This document shows positions 3,310 to 48,787 of a stretch of DNA of 48,791 nt, one piece after another; the first letter of the stretch is position 1; each line of letters starts with the position of its first letter. The stretch covers positions 1 through 48,791 of the forward strand of contig JAOZRW010000013.1 of NCBI GenBank assembly GCA_029939995.1. The letters run 5' to 3'. This DNA is from Acidimicrobiia bacterium (lineage in GTDB: Bacteria > Actinomycetota > Acidimicrobiia > Spongiisociales > UBA5794). The translations under genes and the position numbers were made by a program. A model generated the notes under the pieces. It had not been told where the DNA came from. It worked only from the letters and a program-made list of their open reading frames with translations, and searched no databases.

Positions 3310-4362
3310 ATGCGCACGAAGACGAAATACGACCGGTTCCCCGTCGTGAAGCGCGGCTACGACCCGCTAGCCGTGGAATCGCACCTCGAAGAGCTCGCAG
3401 CGGAGATGGACCAGACCCTCGATGAGGCGGCGGCTCAGATCGCCGCTCTCGAAGGATCCCTCGAACAGGCCCGGAGCCACGAAGAAGCCGTCCACCTGAC
3501 GATCCTCGCAGCCACACAGACCAAACAGGACATGCTCGAAGTCGCCGAGCGCCAGGCGGAGGAGCTCAAGGCGGAGGCCCGCCAGAAGAGCGACCAGATG
3601 ATGACCTACGCGAGGATGCAAGCGTTCCAGGTCGTAACCGAAGCCCGCACCGAAGCCGAGGCGATCGTCGCCGAGGCACGTGCCGAGGCTGCTTCGCTCG
3701 CCCGTGCGGAAGCCGCGACCGTCGCGTCGAACGATGGACCGTCGGAGCGTGAAGCGGCCCTGCAACAGCGGATCGATGAGATGCAGGCCGTCATCGAGGC
3801 CATGGAAACCGAGATCATCAACAGTTACGCCGCAGCCATGACGCGTAAGGAGCCTGCAGACACCTCAGCCGAGGAAGAAGCGGAAGACGACCTCGCCGAG
3901 ACACCGGACGCCTCAGACCCCGTCACCGACGTCGAAGTGACCGCAGCGGCCGACGAGACGACCGTCGACGAAGAAGACGACCCCGAAGATATCCAACCGA
4001 TCACGATCGACGAGCTGGCCGAAGAGCATCTCGAGATCATCGTGACCGACACCGCTCCGGTGACCGTTGACACCGAATCGGCCGCCGACTCCACCGATGT
4101 ACCGGAAACGGTCGAAGTCGAGATGGTCGCAACGGAGACGGAAACGGTCGAAGCCTCCACCGGCGACGGCGCGTCCGTCGACCAGGCATCCGGGATACGT
4201 CGTTCGTTCTACTCGCGGCGCTCGGCCAAGCTCCCCCGCATCGGCGTCGAGGCCGGCCGCGGGGCGATGGCCGCGGCAGCGGGTCTCCGGCCCAACCTCT
4301 CGGGACGTGACGACGAGGAGGAGGCGGAACCGGCACCGTCTCCGGAGTACGAAGCAGTTTGA
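3310..4362 (+). CDS. DivIVA-domain coiled-coil protein
   Basis: About 350 residues. The N-terminus (FPVVKRGYDPLAVESHLEEL) matches the DivIVA membrane-binding motif with its conserved GYDP. A long Ala/Glu-rich coiled coil (about 30-170) follows, then a very acidic Asp/Glu/Thr/Val stretch (about 185-290) and a short basic tail with RRSFYSRRSAK. DivIVA proteins bind curved membrane and organise septa or growing poles in actinobacteria. Start is uncertain: GTG at 3268, TTG at 3298 (GAGGA 7 nt upstream), or ATG at 3310, which directly begins the DivIVA motif. A 17-codon ORF from GTG 3257 ends by overlapping this ATG (TGATG). It follows plsB on the same strand but has its own likely promoter. Confidence 0.8.
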   Translation: MRTKTKYDRFPVVKRGYDPLAVESHLEELAAEMDQTLDEAAAQIAALEGSLEQARSHEEAVHLTILAATQTKQDMLEVAERQAEELKAEARQKSDQMMTYARMQAFQVVTEARTEAEAIVAEARAEAASLARAEAATVASNDGPSEREAALQQRIDEMQAVIEAMETEIINSYAAAMTRKEPADTSAEEEAEDDLAETPDASDPVTDVEVTAAADETTVDEEDDPEDIQPITIDELAEEHLEIIVTDTAPVTVDTESAADSTDVPETVEVEMVATETETVEASTGDGASVDQASGIRRSFYSRRSAKLPRIGVEAGRGAMAAAAGLRPNLSGRDDEEEAEPAPSPEYEAV

Positions 4363-4487
4363 CAGACTTGGCGAGGGCGGTTCCGACGCTCGGCTGCCCG
4401 CCCGTGTCGATGCCCCACCGGCACCGTCCTCGCCACCACTCCCCTCTCCGGCCCTGACCGGATGAGGCGTCCGCCGGGTGTCACCCG

Positions 4488-5102
4488 TTAGAAGTACGGG
4501 TTGACGCCCATCGAATGGTCGGTGGCGTCGACGACCTCGGTGATCTCGGGGATCAATTCGAGGATCGCCTTCTCGATGCCGTCTTGCAGCGTCACCGCCG
4601 CGAGCCCGCATCCCTGGCAACCTCCGCCCAGTTCCAGGATCGCTTTGGATCCGTCGATCGCCACCAGATTCGCGATCCCGCCGTGGGCGGCGATCGCCGG
4701 GTTGATCTGCTCGGCCAGGAGTTGCCGGACCTTCTCCTCCGGGGTTCCCGAGAGCTCGATCTCCCCTCCGAGTCCGAGGCCCGGGCTCGGCGTGTTCGGG
4801 TTCCTGATGACGAGTCCAACCGACGGCCCGGCCGTCGACAGGTCGAGCACGGCACCGCGAAGGTCTTCGACGGAGCCGGCGGCGATCGAGACGGGGAGAT
4901 CCCCGTGCTCCTCGATGTGGTCGACGGGCGAGAGATCCTCACCTCTGACGAACGCCGTCTCGTAGACGTACCCGTTCGCACCGACGCCGCTGATTCTCAA
5001 CGCGAGGTAGAGATCATCGATCGACTCCGCCGCTCGGAGTTCGAGGATCTTTTCGAGCGCTTCCGTCGTGATGTCGACGACGGGTGTTTCGATGTCAGTC
5101 AT
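4488..5102 (-). CDS. nfuA: NfuA-type Fe-S cluster scaffold/carrier protein
   Basis: A 204-residue two-domain protein. Residues 1-110 are an A-type (HesB/IscA-like) domain without its cysteines. Residues 120-200 are a Nfu domain with the cluster-binding CxxC in GGGCQGCG (C162, C165). Such proteins hold a [4Fe-4S] cluster between two subunits and hand it to apo-enzymes; MiaB and RimO, both in this window, are the kind of [4Fe-4S] client served. The ATG at 5102 is chosen because upstream codons lack family similarity and a -10-like box lies 10 nt before it. It is convergent with the DivIVA-like gene across a 125-bp gap with no clear terminator. Confidence 0.88.
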   Translation of the reverse strand: MTDIETPVVDITTEALEKILELRAAESIDDLYLALRISGVGANGYVYETAFVRGEDLSPVDHIEEHGDLPVSIAAGSVEDLRGAVLDLSTAGPSVGLVIRNPNTPSPGLGLGGEIELSGTPEEKVRQLLAEQINPAIAAHGGIANLVAIDGSKAILELGGGCQGCGLAAVTLQDGIEKAILELIPEITEVVDATDHSMGVNPYF

Positions 5103-5112
5103 GTGGCCGCGG

Positions 5113-5118
5113 ATGCTA
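5113..5118 (-). promoter_or_regulatory. -10 box TAGCAT of nfuA
   Basis: On the minus strand TAGCAT lies 10 nt before the nfuA ATG, suggesting a very short or absent leader and expression independent of the upstream AMP-binding gene. Confidence 0.4.
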
Positions 5119-5133
5119 CCGCCGCGTTCCCGG

Positions 5134-6846
5134 CTAGCGATACAGGTCTTCGACCAGTTCGGAGTACCGCTCGAGTACGACGGACCGGTGCACCGTTCCG
5201 TCCGCAGAACGCTCGTCGTCCTCGACGGAGAGAGGCCGTGGAAGCAGCCCGATCTTGCGGATCTGCTCGGATCTCGCGTAGTTCCCATTCACCGCTTTGA
5301 CGGCCGACTCGGCGACGGCGCGGGCATCCGCCGGGTTTCCCGCGGCTGCAGCATCATCGACCGCGACGAGCACCCCGAGTTGGTCGTGGCCGTCTCCGAC
5401 GACGATCGCATCGGTGATCCCCGGCATCGCCCGAAGGGAGGCCTCGACCGCCCGCGCACAGACGTTCTTGCCACCGGTGGTGATCACGATGTCCTTCTTC
5501 CTGCCGCTGATGGTCAGGAATCCGTCGATGCCGACGGTTCCGAGATCCCCAGTGTGCAGCCAACCCTCCCGCAGTGCCATCCGGGTTGCAGCGGGGTCGT
5601 CGAGGTAGCCGGAGAAGACGCTCCTCCCCCCGATGAGGATCTCGCCGTCGTCGGCGAGTTCGATCTGGACTCCCGGCATCGGCAGGCCGACGGTTCCGAA
5701 TCGCGTGTCGCCCTCCCTCGTGACCGCCGACGGTCCGGTGGCTTCCGAGAGCCCGTAGACCTCGCGGATGGGGAGGTCGATCCCGGAGAAGTATTCGAGC
5801 ATCGCCGTGTCCGCCGACGCCGCTCCGCTGAACGCCACCTTGAGGTTCGCGAATCCCATCGCGTGCTTGACCCGGTCCGTGAACAACCGCCGCGCGAGCG
5901 CCATCTTCGCCCGGGCGTAGATCGATCGGCGCCGACCGGCGTTCCGTGCGGCGATGTCGCGTCGCGACGTCTCCATGGCTTCGTCGGCGATCCTCCGATC
6001 GATCCCTTCGAGTGCGTCGAGCTTCTTCCGGAGTGCCCGTTCGAACCCGTTCCACACGAGGGGGACACCGAAGAAGATCGACGGTTGGATCTCCGGGAGG
6101 TCGACCCGGATGCGCCCGATCGATTGGGCGAACGCGACCCGATACCCGACCTGAGCCGGAGCGAGGATGGTGAAGATCTGCTCGGCGATGTGGCTCAGCG
6201 GCAGATACGAGAGCGCGCTGTCCGACGGCTCGATCTCGAACAGATCGACCGATGATTGGGAGGTGAACACGAGGTTGTCGTGGGTCAGCACGACGCCGAC
6301 CGCCGCTCCGTGCCCGGCCGCGGTGAAGATGATCGTCGCAGGATCCCCCGGTTGGAGCGCGGCGAGCCGCTCGTCGATGCGATCTCGTGCGACGTGCTCC
6401 CCCCGGGCGGCGAATTCGTTCCATGACATCACACCGTCGGGAGCGTCCTCCACGCACACGATCATGTCGAGATGCTCGTGGGCGGACGGGTCGATCTTCG
6501 CGGCATGACTCGACGTTTGTGCGAGGACGATCCGCGACCGGGTTCGTTCGAGGATGTCGGCGACTCCGTCGGCGGGGGTCGAGAAGTAGATGCCGACGGG
6601 CACGGCGCCGACGGCCATCGCCGCCACGTCGAAGATCACCCACTCCGGCGTGTTGTAGGAGTAGATCGCAACGCGGTCGCCCGGTTCGATCCCTGCGTCG
6701 ATCATCGCTGCTGCGATGCGCGTGACTTGAGCGGCGTACTCGTTCCACGTGGTCGTTCGCCACGAACCGTCGATCCGGGCGACGAACGCCGCTTCATCAC
6801 CGAACCGGTTCGCGTTCGCCAGCACCAGGTGTGGGATTGTCTTCAC
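5134..6846 (-). CDS. AMP-binding (long-chain acyl-CoA synthetase-like) protein, probable pseudoenzyme
   Basis: A 570-residue homologue of long-chain fatty acyl-CoA synthetases. Fold motifs are kept: LSYLPLSHIAEQ, YGLSEATGP, LHTGDLG and SGRKKDIVITTGGKNV. Two catalytic sites are not. The phosphate loop, normally TSGTTGxPKG, reads TAAGHGAAVG (about residues 175-184), losing the Ser/Thr residues and the lysine. The C-terminal A10 lysine (normally TPTxKxRR) is Thr at about residue 551 within SADGTVHRS. Both changes were checked in the nucleotides and the frame is intact. It may have lost adenylation and kept lipid binding or a regulatory role. GTG start at 6846, preceded by GGAGGG; divergent from malQ. 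Confidence 0.85.
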   Translation of the reverse strand: MKTIPHLVLANANRFGDEAAFVARIDGSWRTTTWNEYAAQVTRIAAAMIDAGIEPGDRVAIYSYNTPEWVIFDVAAMAVGAVPVGIYFSTPADGVADILERTRSRIVLAQTSSHAAKIDPSAHEHLDMIVCVEDAPDGVMSWNEFAARGEHVARDRIDERLAALQPGDPATIIFTAAGHGAAVGVVLTHDNLVFTSQSSVDLFEIEPSDSALSYLPLSHIAEQIFTILAPAQVGYRVAFAQSIGRIRVDLPEIQPSIFFGVPLVWNGFERALRKKLDALEGIDRRIADEAMETSRRDIAARNAGRRRSIYARAKMALARRLFTDRVKHAMGFANLKVAFSGAASADTAMLEYFSGIDLPIREVYGLSEATGPSAVTREGDTRFGTVGLPMPGVQIELADDGEILIGGRSVFSGYLDDPAATRMALREGWLHTGDLGTVGIDGFLTISGRKKDIVITTGGKNVCARAVEASLRAMPGITDAIVVGDGHDQLGVLVAVDDAAAAGNPADARAVAESAVKAVNGNYARSEQIRKIGLLPRPLSVEDDERSADGTVHRSVVLERYSELVEDLYR

Positions 6847-12895: not shown

Positions 12896-13192
12896 TCACG
12901 CTTCGTCGGGAGCGGGGACGATGAGGACCTGCCCGACGCCGATCACCGAGGTCGTGAGGCCGTTCAGGTCCCGAATCTCGGCGACGACCCCGCGCACGTC
13001 ATCACCATCGTCCGCGAGATCGGAAGCGATGGACCACAGCGTCTCCCCGGCGTGAACACGGTGATCGCTCGTTTCCGCCGGAGTTCCGGCGCTCATCGCA
13101 TGAACGGCAGTCGCGAGGAGGAGCACGAACACTGCAACCGTCGTGGAGATGATGACCAGCGCTCTGGCGCTGGTGCTGCGTTGCGTGATCAT
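12896..13192 (-). CDS. LysM-domain membrane/envelope protein, likely SOS cell-division regulator
   Basis: 98 residues: a short basic N-terminus, one hydrophobic segment (about 13-33, VIISTTVAVFVLLLATAVHA) and a C-terminal LysM domain (HRVHAGETLWSIASDL to GVGQVLIVP). This build, and the divergent placement next to lexA, match Bacillus YneA, Corynebacterium DivS-type and Mycobacterium Rv2719c (ChiZ), damage-induced proteins that delay division. GAGGAGGAG upstream supports ATG 13192. The control region carries three LexA boxes and one copy of the TCTGTCACA-N9-TACGTT motif, so induction by both routes is likely. nrdR follows on the same strand. Confidence 0.85.
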   Translation of the reverse strand: MITQRSTSARALVIISTTVAVFVLLLATAVHAMSAGTPAETSDHRVHAGETLWSIASDLADDGDDVRGVVAEIRDLNGLTTSVIGVGQVLIVPAPDEA

Positions 13193-13274: not shown

Positions 13275-13298
13275 AACGTACCGCCCGGGTGTGACAGA
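13275..13298 (-). promoter_or_regulatory. TCTGTCACA-N9-TACGTT motif (RecA-NDp/PafBC-like) before the LysM gene
   Basis: Minus-strand TCTGTCACA (13290-13298), 9 nt, TACGTT (13275-13280). The same elements with identical spacing occur before recA and the DUF222-HNH gene. It would start a transcript near 13268 with a leader of about 75 nt to the LysM ATG. Confidence 0.6.
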
Positions 13299-13320: not shown

Positions 13321-13334
13321 CGAACGTGTGTTCG
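13321..13334. promoter_or_regulatory. LexA (SOS) box 1
   Basis: CGAACGTGTGTTCG fits the Gram-positive/actinobacterial operator CGAAC-N4-GTTCG perfectly. Confidence 0.85.
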
Positions 13335-13349
13335 TATCCCGAACGATAC

Positions 13350-13363
13350 CGAACATCTGTTCG
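13350..13363. promoter_or_regulatory. LexA (SOS) box 2
   Basis: CGAACATCTGTTCG, a perfect operator, identical in sequence to the recA box at 21156-21169. Confidence 0.9.
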
Positions 13364-13413: not shown

Positions 13414-13440
13414 GTGGCTCACGCGAATGAGGGGCACCCC

Positions 13441-14076
13441 GTGGACGGCAGACACGATCTCACCGACAGGCAACGGCAGATCCTCGATCTGATCAGCGCG
13501 ACCGTGCACGATCGCGGCTATCCCCCGTCGGTTCGTGAGATCGGCGAGGCCGTCGGCCTGTCCTCCCCTTCCACCGTTCACAGCCATCTCTCCGCACTCG
13601 AGCGGGAGGGCTACCTCCGTCGAGATCCGAGCAAGCCGCGGGCGATCGAAGTCATCGACGACGGGAGACCCGAAATGGCCCTGCATCGGGCCCCCACGCG
13701 CGACGTGCCCCTCGTCGGCCGCATCGCCGCCGGGTCACCGATCCTGGCCGAGCAGGACATCCAGGAGATCTACCCCCTGCCTACCGAACTCGTAGGCAAC
13801 GACCCCGTGTTCATGCTCGACGTGCGCGGCGACTCCATGATCGACGTCGGGATCTTCGACGGCGACTACGTCGTCGTCCGACGGCAGTCGACGGCGCAGA
13901 ACGGCCAGCTCGTCGCGGCGCTCGTGGGTGAGGACGAGGCCACCGTCAAGCGTCTCAAGCGCAAGGACGGGCGCGTCATCCTCGAAGCGGAGAACGAAGC
14001 CTACGCTCCGATGGTCTTCACGGAAGGCGTCGAGATCCTCGGAATCGTCGTCGCCGTGCTCCGACGCGTCGAGTAG
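13441..14076 (+). CDS. lexA: SOS repressor LexA
   Basis: A 211-residue repressor/self-cleaving protease. The winged-helix DNA-binding domain (LTDRQRQILDLI, then SVREIGEAVGLSSPSTVHSHL) is followed by the cleavage site Ala97-Gly98 in VGRIAAGSP and the catalytic dyad Ser132 (RGDSMIDVG) and Lys170 (ATVKRL). RecA filaments trigger cleavage and release the SOS genes. GTG 13441 is preferred over GTG 13414: it has GAGGGG 6 nt upstream, gives the usual LexA N-terminus and lies after the predicted transcription start. The three operators between lexA and the divergent LysM gene imply tight joint control. Confidence 0.97.
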   Translation: MDGRHDLTDRQRQILDLISATVHDRGYPPSVREIGEAVGLSSPSTVHSHLSALEREGYLRRDPSKPRAIEVIDDGRPEMALHRAPTRDVPLVGRIAAGSPILAEQDIQEIYPLPTELVGNDPVFMLDVRGDSMIDVGIFDGDYVVVRRQSTAQNGQLVAALVGEDEATVKRLKRKDGRVILEAENEAYAPMVFTEGVEILGIVVAVLRRVE

Positions 14077-18919: not shown

Positions 18920-21052
18920 CTACCCCGCGGTCGGCTCGGCATCGTCCGTCTCGGCGACTTCCGCCTCCGCGTCTTCCTCGATCACGCCGACGGCCCGGAG
19001 GACCTGGTCCTGGAGTTGAACTGCAAGTTGAGGGTTCTCCCTGAGGAAGAGCTTCGCCTTCTCACGGCCCTGTCCGAGCTGATCCCCGTCGTAGGTGTAC
19101 CAGGCGCCCGCCTTCTTGACGATGCCCTCTTCGACGGCGACGTCGAGCAGGCTTCCCTCCCGGGAGATCCCCTCGCCGAACATGATGTCGAACTCTGCAA
19201 GGCGGAACGGCGGAGCGACCTTGTTCTTGGCGATCTTCGCTCGGACCCGGTTCCCGACGTTGTCGGTTCCCGACTTGATCGCCTCGATCCTCCGAACGTC
19301 GATACGGACGCTCGCGTAGAACTTGAGGGCACGCCCACCCGGGGTCGTCTCAGGTGAATTGTGCACCATCACGCCGTCGACCAGGTAGTTGTGATGCCCC
19401 TCGACCTCGAGGTCGAACTTCCGCATCGAGCGCGTGGCCGGTTTCTCGTGGATGTCGACGATGGGGACGGGTGTGAGATTCATCCGTTCGATGGCCGGCT
19501 CGACATACACCGCATAGCGGCCGCGATGATGCCGCAGCAGCTTGTACGACATGGCCTCGGGAACGTACGGGGCGATGAGCGCGTGCAACGCCTCGGTACC
19601 GTCCTTGTCGAACACGATGACGGCCTTGCCCGCCCGGTCCTTGAGCCCGCATGAGAGCCCGTACGTGTCGTTCAGGAGTTGAACGAGACGGGTCCTGGAC
19701 GTGCGTTCCATCGCTTCGACGCAGACGTCGGAGCGCCCGGCAGAGCCGTCGATCCGACGCTCGGCGAATGTCCCATCGTCCATGTACCAGACCGCGAGGG
19801 CGAAGGGTGTGAGCTCCTTGAGATAGTCCCAACTGAATACCTTCTTGTCGCCGACGTACACGGCATCCCGAAGGCCGTCGAGTTCGACCAGCGGTGTCGT
19901 CTCGACCATCAGGCCACCCTTCGCATGCGGGCTGATGCCGAGGGGGACGCCTTCGAGCAGCGACGCCTTCCACCGTGCATAGTCATCCTGCTTGGGGCCG
20001 TGACCGAAACGGAACCGGGACTTCATCGTCACGCCGACCTCGTGAACCGGTTTGGGAGAGATCGACCCGTCTCCCATGAGCCCTCCGAGAACGAGTTGGC
20101 GTTGCTGATCGGACAGGTAGTGCTTCATCGGCATCAGGACCGAGTCCCCGACCGCGAGATCCCCCGCCTCCCGCCAACCCATCGGCGTTGCGATCTTGTG
20201 CGGCTCCGTCGCGGCGAACTGGGCCCTGCCGTTCCCCTCCGGCTTGTAGACCGTGAACTGCAGGAAGCGCTCGGCGTTGCCGTTGTCGAACCAGTTCACG
20301 ACTCGTGCCGGCTCGACCTTGCCTGTCTCGGGATCGACGGCGAGAACCTCGACGGGAAGCTTCTGGTTGACGATCTTGCCGATCTTCTCCTGCGTTCCGT
20401 CGGCGAGCGTCACCCGGGTTCCGTACTGGAAGCAGCCGAACATCACACCGATCTTCTCGCGAAGCTGGTTGATGAAGATGACGGTCGTGTGAGAGCGGTT
20501 GACGGTCCCGGCCAGTTTCCGCAGGGCCTGGGACATGAGACGGGCCTGGAGACCGACGTGGGTGTCCCCCATGTCTCCTTCGAGCTCGGCGCGCGGCACG
20601 AGGGCTGCGACCGAATCGATGACCACGATGTCGAGCGCCCCGGATCGGATCAGCATGTCGGTGATCTCGAGCGCCTGCTCCCCCGTGTCCGGCTGGGAGA
20701 TGAGCAGTTCGTCGACGTCGACACCGATCGCCCTGGCGTAGACGGGGTCGAGGGCATGCTCGGCGTCGATGAACGCGGCGAGGCCGCCGTTGCGCTGCGC
20801 TTCGGCGACGATGTGCAGAGCGAGGGTCGTCTTCCCCGAGCTCTCAGGCCCGTAGATCTCGACGATGCGTCCGCGGGGCACCCCGCCGATGCCGAGTGCG
20901 AGATCGAGCGAGAGGGCTCCGGTGGGGATCGAGTCCATCATACGGATCTCTTCGTCGCCCATTCTCATGATGGCGCCCTTGCCGAATTGCCGTTCGATCT
21001 GGGACATCGCCATCTCGATGTTCTTGTCCCGGTCTTTGTGGTCCTGGGCCAC
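18920..21052 (-). CDS. recA: recombinase RecA precursor with intein
   Basis: A 710-residue precursor. Residues 1-206 and 566-710 together make a normal 351-residue RecA: Walker A GPESSGKT (68-75), [12 protein letters not shown], the L2-region [12 protein letters not shown], then [18 protein letters not shown] and an acidic C-terminus. Residues 207-565 are an in-frame intein after the Gly of GVMFG. RecA drives strand exchange and triggers LexA self-cleavage. The GTG at 21052 has AAGGAG 5 nt upstream. Two control elements precede it: a RecA-NDp-like motif at 21079-21102 and a LexA box at 21156-21169. No recX follows. Confidence 0.97.
19358..20434 (-). mobile_element. RecA intein with LAGLIDADG homing endonuclease
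   Basis: A 359-residue class 1 intein. It begins with Cys ([13 protein letters not shown], block A) and has a TEPHKIAT block B. A two-motif LAGLIDADG endonuclease follows ([11 protein letters not shown] at about 114-124, [12 protein letters not shown] at about 212-223). It ends with block F ([13 protein letters not shown]) and block G (VMVHN, then Ser as +1 residue). All splicing residues are intact. The insertion point after GVMFG is the one I recall for the Mycobacterium leprae RecA intein, not the M. tuberculosis site further downstream. The intact endonuclease acids (Asp in both motifs) suggest recent or continuing mobility. Confidence 0.96.
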
Positions 21053-21078: not shown

Positions 21079-21102
21079 AACGTACCGGGTGCCTGTGACA
21101 GA
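21079..21102 (-). promoter_or_regulatory. TCTGTCACA-N9-TACGTT motif, proximal recA promoter
   Basis: Minus-strand TCTGTCACA (21094-21102), 9 nt, TACGTT (21079-21084). A start near 21072 would give a 20-nt leader carrying the AAGGAG site. The arrangement mirrors mycobacterial recA, where a LexA-independent promoter lies nearer the gene than the LexA-controlled one. Confidence 0.65.
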
Positions 21103-21155: not shown

Positions 21156-21169
21156 CGAACATCTGTTCG
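21156..21169. promoter_or_regulatory. LexA (SOS) box of recA
   Basis: CGAACATCTGTTCG, a perfect operator, about 105 nt before the recA start. TATCGT just downstream (minus strand, 21148-21153) may be the -10 it controls. Confidence 0.9.
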
Positions 21170-21266: not shown

Positions 21267-21809
21267 TCAGAGGAGGACTTCGTCGACGACCTCGTAGCGG
21301 GCACCGTCGCGGCCGAGTTCGCTCCGGTAGAGCGTCAGCCGGTCGACCCTCATCGTCAGCGGGAATCGGGGCACCCGGTCGATGAGTCCGCGGACGTCCT
21401 GCGGTGGGCGGATCCGGGAGAGCGTGAGATGCGGATGGAACGGGCGGTCCTCCGGATCGAAGCCCGCCGAGACCGCGGCCGCCTCGCAGACGGCCGCCGC
21501 CGAGGCCACCTCGGACCTGCCGCGATCGACGCCGAGCCACAGCACCGTCGCTCGCGACGGCTTCGGGAACGCGCCGAGCGTGTCGAACCCGAGTGTGAAC
21601 GGCTCGACCGTCAGATGATCGTCGAGGAACTCCAAGATCCGGTCTCGTTGGACCGCCCCGGTCGGCCCGAGGAACCGCAGCGTGAGATGCCAGTTGTCCG
21701 GAGGAGTCGGGCGCCCCGGGAGCCGCATCGTGTGTTCCATGAGGAACGAGGCGAGGCCGTGGCGGACTTCATCGGACAAGGCCACGGCGACGAAGAGCCG
21801 CTCGCTCAC
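21267..21809 (-). CDS. thpR: RNA 2',3'-cyclic phosphodiesterase
   Basis: A 180-residue member of the 2H phosphoesterase family (LigT/ThpR), with both catalytic HxTx motifs: NWHLTLRFLG (near residue 40) and FHPHLTLSRI (near residue 125). It opens 2',3'-cyclic phosphates at RNA ends; the cellular role is unclear. Its GTG at 21809 overlaps the cinA stop (GTGA), so it is the last gene of rimO-cinA-thpR. A thpR-like gene between cinA and recA is a familiar actinobacterial arrangement. Confidence 0.9.
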   Translation of the reverse strand: MSERLFVAVALSDEVRHGLASFLMEHTMRLPGRPTPPDNWHLTLRFLGPTGAVQRDRILEFLDDHLTVEPFTLGFDTLGAFPKPSRATVLWLGVDRGRSEVASAAAVCEAAAVSAGFDPEDRPFHPHLTLSRIRPPQDVRGLIDRVPRFPLTMRVDRLTLYRSELGRDGARYEVVDEVLL

Positions 21810-23050
21810 CCGCTCCCCCAGGCGATGCCGAGGAGCGACATGCGGGTGAGGTGCAACGCTGCCGTGGTCGCGAACGTCCTGACCCGTTCACGGTCACCCG
21901 GGAGTCTCAGCGTCTTGACCCGTGTCCCGTCCGGCGTCGCCACCGCGATGATCACGGTACCGACGGGCTGTTCCTGCGGGTCGGGGCCGGCCGAACCCGT
22001 CACCGCCACGGCCAGATCAACGTCGAGACGGGCCCGGGCTCCGGCCGCCATCGCCACGGCCGCCGCTTCGCTCACGACGCCGTGTTCCGCCACGACGGTA
22101 TGGGGAACGTCGAGCAGTCGCTCTTTCACCCCGGTCGCGTAGGCGACGATGGCGCCCCGGAACACGCGGCTCGCACCGGGTATCGAAGTGATGCGGCCTG
22201 CGACGAGCCCTCCGGTCACGGACTCAGCAGTCCCGAACGACCACCCTCGCTCTTCGAGCATGCGCAGTACCACGACTTCGACGGTGTCGGTGTCCGTGCC
22301 GAAGATCCGCTCACCGAGGCGTTCCCGGACGAGGGACTCCATGGGGGCGATCAACGCTTCCGCCTCGCGGCTCGTCGCCGCCTTCGCCGTGATCCTGATC
22401 TTGATCTCACCGGCGGACGCGAGGAAGGCGATGCTCGGATTGGTCGACGTGTCGTAGAGGTCCGCGAGTCGTTCGCCGATCGCCGACTCCGACTCGCCCC
22501 ACGTGCGAAGCAGGCGGCTCGCAACGACCGTTTCGTCGGCGCCCCGGAGGAACGGGATGACCTCGTCTTCGAGCATGGGGATCATCTCGGCGGGAACGCC
22601 GGGGAGTGCGAAGATCCAGGTCCCTGCGATCTGCATCCGGATTCCGGGAGCGGTCCCCTTCGGGTTGCGGATCAACGTCGAACCTTCCGGACGTTCCGCC
22701 TGCTGGAGGTTCGAATCCGGCATCACCCGGCCGCTGCGCTCCCACCGCAGGCGCAGCGCCTCTGCCTGCGTCTCGTCGAATATGAGCGGGACTCCGGCGG
22801 CACGTGCGAGCGCCTCCCTGGTCAGGTCGTCTTTCGTGGGCCCGAGGCCGCCGGTGATGATCAGCGCGTCCGCCCGGCCGCAGGCTGCGGTGACGGCGTC
22901 GGCGATCCGCGCCTCGTTGTCGCCGACCACGGTCTGTTGGAAGTGGTCGAGGCCGGCGTCTGCGAGACGCTCACCGATCCGCGTCGCGTTCGAGTTGACG
23001 ATCTGCCCGAGCAGCAGCTCCGTTCCGACGGCCAGGACCTCGACGATCAT
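21806..23050 (-). CDS. cinA: CinA family protein (competence/damage-inducible, NMN deamidase domain)
   Basis: 414 residues with two domains: an N-terminal MoaB/MogA-like domain (VGTELLLGQIVNSNATRI, TGGLGPTKDDLTREALA) and a C-terminal CinA amidase domain (TAESVTGGLVAGRITSIPGAS, VVSEAAAVAMAAGARARL, AVTGSAGPD). Family members cleave ADP-ribose and/or deamidate NMN in pyridine-nucleotide repair and recycling. The ATG at 23050 overlaps the rimO stop (ATGA). cinA upstream of recA is an old conserved pairing. Confidence 0.94.
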   Translation of the reverse strand: MIVEVLAVGTELLLGQIVNSNATRIGERLADAGLDHFQQTVVGDNEARIADAVTAACGRADALIITGGLGPTKDDLTREALARAAGVPLIFDETQAEALRLRWERSGRVMPDSNLQQAERPEGSTLIRNPKGTAPGIRMQIAGTWIFALPGVPAEMIPMLEDEVIPFLRGADETVVASRLLRTWGESESAIGERLADLYDTSTNPSIAFLASAGEIKIRITAKAATSREAEALIAPMESLVRERLGERIFGTDTDTVEVVVLRMLEERGWSFGTAESVTGGLVAGRITSIPGASRVFRGAIVAYATGVKERLLDVPHTVVAEHGVVSEAAAVAMAAGARARLDVDLAVAVTGSAGPDPQEQPVGTVIIAVATPDGTRVKTLRLPGDRERVRTFATTAALHLTRMSLLGIAWGSG

Positions 23051-24372
23051 GCCGGTCCCCGAACCACGGCTTCGAGATCGGTGCCGAACCCGCCGGTCAC
23101 CTCCGCGGTGACCCACTCCCCCGGCTCGCCGTGATCGAGGATGATCACGCCGTCGATCTCGGGCGCTTCCCGATACGAGCGTCCGACGGGCATCCCTTCT
23201 TCGACCTGGTCGACGACGACGGTGACCGTCCGGCCGATCTGCTCGATCGTTCGGCTGGTCGTGATCTCGTCCTGGATCGCCTGGAGGTATCGCAAGCGTT
23301 CCTGTTTCTCCCCTTCGGGGATCTGCCCGTCCATGACGGCGGCTTCGGTGCCCTCCTCCGGCGAGTACGGGAAGAATCCGGCCCAGTCCAGTTCGACTTC
23401 GGAGAGGAACGCCGCGAGATCGTCGACGTCGTCGTCGGTCTCGCCCGGGAAACCGACGATGAACGAAGATCGCAGGGCGGCGTCCGGAGCCGCCCGGCGG
23501 ATGCGTGCGATGAGATCTCGATGCTGCTCACCCGAACCGGGGCGCTTCATCGCGCGCAACAGCGACACCGCCGTGTGTTGGAGGGACAGATCGAAGTAGT
23601 CGGCGACGAGCGGATTCCCTGCCATCTCTTCGATGAGGGCGGGGCGGATCTCCTTCGGATAGAGGTAGTAGAGGCGCAATCTGCGCAGGCCATCCACGCT
23701 CGTCACCGACCGGACGAGGTCGACGATGCCCGGCGCGTCGATGTCCCGGCCGTACGCCGCGAGGTCCTGGGCGACGAGCCCGATCTCGGCGACGCCGGCT
23801 CCCGTGAGTTCGGCGACCTCTGCCCTGATGTTCTCCGGATCGCGGGATCGTTGCTTCCCCCGGAACTGCGGGATCGCACAGAAGGTGCAGGGCTTGTCGC
23901 ACCCCTCCGCGACCTTGACGTACGCGTAGGGAGTCGTCGGTGTCGGCCGCCGCGTCTCGTAGAGGATGTCCATGTGCGAACGTCGTGCCGTTCCGATCGT
24001 GATCGGAGTCCATCGGCGCATCGCGTCGAGGCGGTCGATCAGCTCCGGGTAGCGATCGAGTCCGATGACGGCGTCGGCTTCGGGGAGCGCATCTGCGAGC
24101 TCCTTCTCGTACCGCTGCGCCATGCAGCCGATCACGACGAGGCTGGCGTCCTCGCGTTTCGCCCCGGCGACGTCGAGGATGGTGTCGACCGACTCTCGAC
24201 GCGCCGGCTCGATGAACCCGCACGTGTTGACCATCACGACGTCGGCGGTCTCCGGCGAGATCGCGTTCCGGTAGCCGGCCGCAGAGAGCATCCCGGTGAT
24301 CTTGTCGGAATCGACCTGGTTCTTCGCGCAGCCGAGGGTGGTCAGCCAGACGGTGGGGGCATCTGCGGTCAT
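23047..24372 (-). CDS. rimO: ribosomal protein S12 methylthiotransferase
   Basis: A 441-residue radical-SAM methylthiotransferase that modifies the aspartate of ribosomal protein S12. It has LGCAKNQVDSD, NTCGFIEPARRES and GCMAQRY in the UPF0004 domain, GCDKPCTFCAIPQFRGKQRSR in the radical-SAM domain and a C-terminal TRAM domain. The sequence details (CAKNQVDSD, CGFI) are RimO-type, not MiaB-type. The ATG follows a TACGCT box by 8 nt. First gene of rimO-cinA-thpR. Confidence 0.96.
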   Translation of the reverse strand: MTADAPTVWLTTLGCAKNQVDSDKITGMLSAAGYRNAISPETADVVMVNTCGFIEPARRESVDTILDVAGAKREDASLVVIGCMAQRYEKELADALPEADAVIGLDRYPELIDRLDAMRRWTPITIGTARRSHMDILYETRRPTPTTPYAYVKVAEGCDKPCTFCAIPQFRGKQRSRDPENIRAEVAELTGAGVAEIGLVAQDLAAYGRDIDAPGIVDLVRSVTSVDGLRRLRLYYLYPKEIRPALIEEMAGNPLVADYFDLSLQHTAVSLLRAMKRPGSGEQHRDLIARIRRAAPDAALRSSFIVGFPGETDDDVDDLAAFLSEVELDWAGFFPYSPEEGTEAAVMDGQIPEGEKQERLRYLQAIQDEITTSRTIEQIGRTVTVVVDQVEEGMPVGRSYREAPEIDGVIILDHGEPGEWVTAEVTGGFGTDLEAVVRGPA

Positions 24373-47650: not shown

Positions 47651-48757
47651 TCATCGACGAGGCGGCGCGTGCGTGGGTGGGAGAAGCCGGCGCCGTTGGG
47701 GCGGCGAGTCCGGGTCGATGGCGAAGCCCCTCCCGTGGATGGCGACGTGGTGGTGGTACCAGCAGACGGTGGCGAGGTTCGCCGCGTCGGTCGCTCCCCC
47801 TTCCGACCACGGCGTCACGTGATGAACCTGGAGGCGATACCGGGAGGTGCACCCAGCGATCGTGCATCCCCCGTCCCGGGCGAGGACGAACCGCCGCAGC
47901 CGCGGAGGGATGACGCGCGTCCGGCGCCCCATGTCGAGCGGGACGCCGTCCGGAGCCCGGCCGGTGACCTCGACGACGCCGTCGCACAGGATCGCGTCGA
48001 GCGCGTCGAGTCCGATCCGGGGTCCCGCCTCGATCCACGCACCGGCCTCGCCGTTCGTGGGAGCCGCGTCCCGGGCGTCCATGAAGACCGTCAGGACCGG
48101 TGCGTGGCTCTCGATCGAGGCTCCGTCCGAGCCATGGAGCGCGTCGAGGCTCATCTGCCACAGGGCATCCGCCCGCCTGGTGGAGCGGGTCTCGCTTCGA
48201 TCGTTGGGGAGCTCATCGGCCTTGTGGTCCAGAGCTTCGATCAGTGCCTGCCCGGCCGTCCCCGGGAGCTGCGCGTGGATCCGCCAGGACGACTCATCCA
48301 GGTTCGGCTGGGCGACAACGTAGCGACGGTCGAACGCCTCGCGCTCCCGGCGGCGCGTCAGCCGGTGTCGCCGGGAAACAACGCGAGCCAAGCCATCGAC
48401 GCCGTAGCGCCAGCAGGTTTCGAGCAGATCGGAGTCGTCCTCCCCCGGCGCCGCCGCCCGGGCCGTGGCCCATGCCCGCTCGAACGTCACCGCCCCGTGA
48501 CGGACCGCCCGCTCAACGTTGGGAAGCGTCTCCAGGCGGCGTGCCGTCGAAACCAGTTTCCTCGCCGTGTCCGAGGAGACGTCAAGACGACCGGCGACCC
48601 ACTCGGCCAGGCTTCGGGCTCCGTCCGCAGTGTGGGTCTGGCGCCGGTCGATCTCGCCCAGCAGCACCATCTGCGCAGCGCGGATCCGGGCGATCGCAGC
48701 TTCCCCGTCGATCAGCTGTTGCTCGATCGCATCCGTCGTGACCCCGGTCGTCTTCAT
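47651..48757 (-). CDS. DUF222 / HNH endonuclease-domain protein (13E12 type)
   Basis: A 368-residue protein of the actinobacterial 13E12-repeat type. The N-terminal two-thirds is the helical DUF222 domain (QMVLLGEIDRR, GARSLAEWVAGRLDVSSDTARKLVSTARRL). The C-terminal HNH nuclease motif reads HHVTPWSEGGATDAANLATVCWYHHH, preceded by CTIAGC. These genes are often multicopy; in M. tuberculosis some 13E12 members are damage-inducible. ATG 48757 is 6 nt after the TACGTT half of the TCTGTCACA-N9-TACGTT motif, which also precedes recA and the LysM gene. That suggests a leaderless, damage-responsive transcript. Confidence 0.92.
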   Translation of the reverse strand: MKTTGVTTDAIEQQLIDGEAAIARIRAAQMVLLGEIDRRQTHTADGARSLAEWVAGRLDVSSDTARKLVSTARRLETLPNVERAVRHGAVTFERAWATARAAAPGEDDSDLLETCWRYGVDGLARVVSRRHRLTRRREREAFDRRYVVAQPNLDESSWRIHAQLPGTAGQALIEALDHKADELPNDRSETRSTRRADALWQMSLDALHGSDGASIESHAPVLTVFMDARDAAPTNGEAGAWIEAGPRIGLDALDAILCDGVVEVTGRAPDGVPLDMGRRTRVIPPRLRRFVLARDGGCTIAGCTSRYRLQVHHVTPWSEGGATDAANLATVCWYHHHVAIHGRGFAIDPDSPPQRRRLLPPTHAPPRR

Positions 48758-48763
48758 GCGATC

Positions 48764-48787
48764 AACGTATCACCCGGCTGTGACAGA
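48764..48787 (-). promoter_or_regulatory. TCTGTCACA-N9-TACGTT motif before the DUF222-HNH gene
   Basis: Minus-strand TCTGTCACA (48779-48787), 9 nt, TACGTT (48764-48769), then 6 nt to the ATG. Third copy of the motif at 13275-13298 and 21079-21102. Confidence 0.6.

Follow-up and report, generated by a model that had tools for sequence, protein, structure and literature searches.

In a 48,791-nucleotide stretch of DNA from an Acidimicrobiia bacterium (hereafter the window), the element TCTGTCACA-N9-TACGTT stands upstream of recA, a LysM gene and a DUF222-HNH gene, and it is proposed to be a PafBC-dependent DNA-damage promoter of this genome, a reading to which a probability of close to nine in ten is given. 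The case rests on the sites themselves, their geometry and conservation, the set of genes behind them, a pafBC operon in the genome and a phyletic match with PafB. If so, the damage response known for PafBC in mycobacteria would reach a large class with few cultured members, and would have a concrete regulon there.

The Motif and Its Geometry

An exact-match scan of the window returned three sites, all on the minus strand and all where the original prediction had placed them (Table 1); tolerance of up to two mismatches yielded no fourth TCTGTCACA-N9-TACGTT site in the window. The chance expectation is 0.02, and three sites were reached in 0 of 100 shuffles. The relaxed pattern TGTCACA-N8-11-TANNNT identified the same three sites, every one with N9. 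The spacers (CCCGGGCGG, GGCACCCGG and GCCGGGTGA) are unlike one another, as had been noted at the outset, and the assignment of the sites to the three genes was likewise borne out.

Table 1. Features of the window associated with the PafBC-type sites.
Feature	Position	Strand	Evidence or remark
LysM protein, 98 aa, YneA-like (cell-division suppressor family)	12896..13192	minus	Pfam LysM 33.8 bits
PafBC-type promoter of the LysM gene	13275..13298	minus	exact match; same gene of relatives carries the site
LexA box CGAACACACGTTCG between lexA and LysM gene	13321..13334	minus	sequence
LexA box CGAACAGATGTTCG between lexA and LysM gene	13350..13363	minus	sequence
lexA, divergent from LysM gene	13414..14076	plus	TIGR00498 lexA 246.7 bits
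recA, 710 aa with intein, GTG start 26 nt past -10	18920..21052	minus	Pfam RecA E=1.4e-133; TIGR02012 540.6 bits
PafBC-type promoter of recA, TC-TGTCACA (-26 element)-N9-TACGTT (-10)	21079..21102	minus	exact match; kept at recA across order and class
LexA box CGAACAGATGTTCG 5' of the recA PafBC-type promoter	21156..21169	minus	sequence; order kept in relatives
DUF222-HNH endonuclease-like gene, predicted leaderless	47651..48757	minus	Pfam DUF222 1.4e-17, HNH 8.6e-08
PafBC-type promoter of the DUF222-HNH gene	48764..48787	minus	exact match; ATG (48757) exactly 6 nt after TACGTT

The leader of recA carries an AAGGAGA ribosome site. The RecA intein, with its LAGLIDADG endonuclease domain, was located at 19355-20434 on the minus strand (Pfam and TIGR intein models), and recA is split likewise in genomes G002, G017, G031, G042, G293, G198 and G346; upstream of recA, and sharing its strand, is cinA (21806-23116), the gene of a competence/damage-inducible protein. 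The LysM protein scored 44 bits against the NCBIfam YneA model, under its cut-off of 60. The prediction of LexA-independent damage genes fails for recA and the LysM gene, both of which possess LexA boxes; these two genes look to be under dual control, with a candidate PafBC-type promoter combined with a LexA box.

The relatives contribute 85 distinct exact sites once the G041 repeats are excluded; in 43 of these an ATG begins exactly 6 nt past TACGTT, and in another 7 it begins at 7 nt, against a base-composition expectation of about 1 per position, and this placement argues for TACGTT as the -10 and for TGTCACA at -28 to -22. The fixed distance fits leaderless transcripts, with +1 presumably the A of the ATG, and TACGTT would then occupy -12 to -7. 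Upstream, the element is flanked by A/T-rich sequence (WWT followed by C), and its spacer opens with S-S-C. Spacers of N8-11 were allowed, but the TGTC-N12-TANNNT spacing was held by all 12 matches in the genome; this is the spacing of the PafBC motif. Both the promoter geometry and the resemblance to PafBC promoters put forward in the original prediction were upheld.

Occurrence Across Genomes

The sites were sought by pattern searches of incomplete genomes. Within the 2.55 Mb of this one (208 contigs), TGTCACA-N8-11-TANNNT was matched 12 times, always with N9, and never in the reversed control. With three mismatches tolerated, 30 matches were obtained versus 12 in the control; sites at this level are mostly near background and were left out of the analysis, whereas those with zero or one mismatch are clearly real. 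Of 60 relatives, 48 possess TGTCACA-N9-TACGTT, and the control matched none of the genomes; TGTCACA-N9-TANGTT, present in 42 of 297 genomes, also reaches further families within the class and the phylum. Aquihabitans and Acidimicrobiales are among the named organisms whose RecA is closest to that of this genome, in agreement with the class Acidimicrobiia.

Some of the sites lie in apparent dispersed repeats. In genus g25 (genome G041, L363-L377; also G054), approximately 25 copies of TGTCACA-N9-TACGTT occur with no obvious gene, and recurring peptide strings such as VVAGEGP follow the copies, as if a mobile repeat had carried the damage promoter to many places. In Planctomonas (G363), seven near-identical TGTCGCAGGTCNGCGATAGCGT copies inflate the count of C-type sites discussed below.

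Conservation was followed most closely at recA orthologues. A TGTC-N12-TANNNT element was found 5' of recA in 31 of 37 named Actinomycetota, usually just downstream of a LexA box, taking the form TGTCGGTG, TGTCAGTG or TGTCGGAC in actinomycetes and TGTCACAC or TGTCACAG in Acidimicrobiia. Among 20 members of the order, 18 have the recA element with a LexA box upstream (15 as TGTCACA, one as TGTCGGTG and two with T at position 6), and no element was found upstream of recA in G031. The recA sites of class members were located by position, and only degenerate ones were seen in G090, G171 and G224; G198 has TGTCACACCCCGCAGCTAGGTT 44 bp upstream of its recA match.

Genes Behind the Promoter

A check for enrichment at repair genes found that the good sites of this genome precede recA, the LysM gene, several DUF222-HNH genes, radA (TIGR00416, above cut-off), ssb, rmuC, comM followed by dprA, and a DUF3263 gene, together with a comF-like gene recognized by a weak match. 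Domain matches among the 98 proteins encoded downstream, in this genome or a relative, were DUF222 in 24, ChlI in 12, LysM in 10, RecA in 9 and SSB in 4; ten of the 12 ChlI proteins also matched Mg_chelatase, i.e., they are ComM. By these annotations, the downstream genes are a DNA-damage set that leans toward recombination and DNA uptake. The comM-dprA pair lies at 3478-5876 (minus strand) of L413 (G000:C124), and the comM site recurs in many relatives; its position behind a PafBC-type site suggests a damage-induced handling of incoming DNA.

The same observations bear on a proposal that this is primarily the promoter of a competence (DNA uptake) regulon, given that the motif is found at each of comM-dprA, the comF-like gene, recA, ssb and radA. 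This is considered unlikely: DUF222-HNH genes dominate the set, the LysM gene divergent from lexA is an SOS gene, and the promoter matches that of a damage regulator, PafBC. It is possible that a competence regulon overlaps with the PafBC reading and is not an alternative to it.

Two further groups of proteins were encountered. In several genomes the gene immediately following the motif encodes a protein of about 420 aa (L322, L336 and L382); L322 matched neither Pfam nor NCBIfam and L382 did not match Pfam, and these may represent a novel damage-response gene. The second group, conserved proteins of about 240 aa (RWERSELGKALRRLG...IPVPKGTLSYWC; L041, L327, L349, L352 and L358), follows the motif in several genera, and its searched member, L041, had no Pfam or NCBIfam match. 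Literature searches combining DUF222 with DNA damage, and 13E12 with PafBC, returned nothing useful.

PafBC as the Putative Reader

The genome was searched for a pafBC operon, and one is present: exactly two WYL-domain matches were found, adjacent on contig C61, and these are PafB and PafC within the gene order pafA-pafB-pafC-tatA-tatC (pafA and the tat genes named by reading of their sequences). PafC matched Pfam HTH_PafC with 104 bits (cut-off 32), while PafB has WYL and WCX domains and matches the PafB chain of an RNA polymerase complex (PDB 7p5x) at 5e-28. In a second set of genomes from the phylum, the recA element was present in 18 of 18 genomes with a clear PafB and in none of 8 PafB-negative genomes (p ~6e-7); three genomes with doubtful PafB matches were without it.

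A regulator other than PafBC might use the motif, be it a different WYL protein or a specialized activator, with pafBC present by coincidence; actinobacteria possess many WYL proteins. Such a regulator is nevertheless very unlikely, as both WYL matches in this genome are PafB and PafC, the motif and PafB co-occur as above, and residue 43 of PafB tracks a base of the motif (see below).

For M. smegmatis, the winged helix of PafB has been shown to bind the -26 motif and PafC to bind domain 4 of SigA, the dimer being activated by single-stranded DNA (PMC11804915). Transferred to this genome, damage would yield single-stranded DNA that binds the PafBC heterodimer, the product of the pafABC-tatAC operon, a step proposed by homology to M. 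smegmatis, as damage induction would be by analogy with mycobacteria. TGTCACA (-28 to -22) would serve as the -26 element, and the housekeeping sigma factor would recognize TACGTT (-12 to -7) as its -10, there being no usable -35; PafB would read the -26 element through its winged helix, with sigma region 4 held by PafC. RNA polymerase would then start at recA, the LysM division suppressor, DUF222-HNH genes, radA, ssb, comM-dprA, the comF-like gene and rmuC, with recA and the LysM gene presumably repressed by LexA as well. Position 6 of the element is C and not the G of actinomycetes, probably because residue 43 of the PafB recognition helix is Arg or His.

Position 6 of the Element and Residue 43 of PafB

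Sites of the forms TGTCRGWS and TGTCRCWS, each followed by N8-TASSKT, were tallied in 50 genomes, and the counts split these almost cleanly into G- and C-dominated groups. The recognition helix of PafB, FxRxFERDK, has Arg44 directly after residue 43 (A. aurescens numbering); Arg44 and Arg48 are exposed, conserved arginines of A. aurescens PafBC (PMC6789036). All 24 C-dominated genomes have Arg or His as residue 43, versus 1 of 24 G-dominated ones. Summed over sites, Arg/His genomes hold 194 C-type and 22 G-type, and the other genomes 37 and 242, respectively; at recA alone, all 29 sites with C at position 6 and a readable helix go with Arg or His. Exceptions are G192, which has His and mostly G-type sites, and G050, with Arg and a recA site of TGTCGGTG. 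Three genomes with lysine (G345, G353 and G369) use G, which indicates that basic charge alone does not decide. Aquihabitans, with Lys at this residue, five G-type sites and two C-type sites, hints at an independent case of the change; its PafB groups among those of same-class genomes.

Arg or His at residue 43 could read the G opposite C6. The match rests on two to three changes on the tree, so that shared ancestry could produce the pattern, and with so few changes an independent-pairs test of residue 43 against base 6 cannot attain significance; the tracking is a lead, not a proof. On a midpoint-rooted tree, the G-type actinomycete clade is nested among C-type rows, and this suggests, without proving it, that the C form is older than the G form. 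It is therefore offered only tentatively, with the balance tipped slightly toward doubt, that residue 43 is a specificity switch of PafBC: Arg or His would read C6 in Acidimicrobiia and other families, its replacement would have coincided with a genome-wide rewriting of promoters to G6 in Actinomycetia, and the mycobacterial motif would be derived. If true, a C6 regulon that includes comM-dprA and the comF-like gene would tie DNA damage to the processing of DNA taken up. The relationship provides a rare testable case in which a one-base change across the regulon of an activator is matched to one residue of that activator.

Comparison with Known Systems

The view that the motif is lineage-specific, as in the original prediction, and unrelated to PafBC finds in its favour that TGTCACA dominates this class while Actinomycetia use TGTCRG. 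It is now scarcely credible: the element has the same place at recA and the same spacing, the PafBC operon is present, the C form occurs across the class and in other actinobacterial families, and the forms of the PafBC motif given for M. tuberculosis in transcriptome work are TGTCGG, TGTCAG and TGTCAC-N10-TA-N3-T (PMC8151990).

The least plausible assignment, to ECF41 sigma factors, whose -35 consensus is literally TGTCACA and whose -10s are CGTC or TGTT (PMC3426412), so that CGTT would be the -10 here, is rejected on spacing, which is an invariant 11 bp across the genome matches and not the required 16 ± 1 bp to CGTC (PMC3426412), and conflicts also with the element grading into TGTCRG at recA across the phylum and with its repair and DUF222-HNH genes, recA included, where ECF41 serves COE genes (carboxymuconolactone decarboxylase, oxidoreductase or epimerase) that neighbour its own gene (PMC3426412). 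No TGTCACA-N14-18-CGTC was found in the window. ECF41 is a sigma factor and PafBC an adaptor, and the heptamer is common to both; TGTCACA alone cannot tell their promoters apart, but the spacer can.

Read as a PafBC promoter, the element shares with the mycobacterial PafBC/RecA-NDp (P1) promoter, TGTCRGTG-N8-TAN3T, the distance of 12 between TGTC and TANNNT, the lack of a -35, a place downstream of a LexA box at recA, a repair regulon and a pafABC operon. It differs in having C at position 6 and Arg or His at PafB residue 43, and in that many promoters here appear leaderless; the -10 is mostly TACGTT or TAGGTT, compared to TAGCGT for mycobacterial RecA-NDp. Of the difference between TGTCACA and TGTCRGTG to which attention had first been drawn, the change of G to C at position 6 is consistent, the G of the TGTCRG extension being C in these lineages, but the A and C/G that follow are shared with actinomycete recA promoters (e.g., TGTCGGACC of Mycobacterium). 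C at position 6 is a difference of consensus and no bar to membership, TGTCAC being a reported M. tuberculosis variant.

The actinobacterial LexA/SOS box, CGAAC-N4-GTTCG, has recA and the LysM gene as targets in common with the element; it is a repressor palindrome upstream of the element at both genes, with another sequence and another reader protein. The promoter type is already known, and its core pattern is identical to TGTCAC-N10-TA-N3-T of M. tuberculosis (PMC8151990). What seems new is the lineage-level change at position 6, C here and G in Actinomycetia, by which TGTCAC, a minor variant beside TGTCGG and TGTCAG in M. tuberculosis, is the dominant form genome-wide and over whole lineages.
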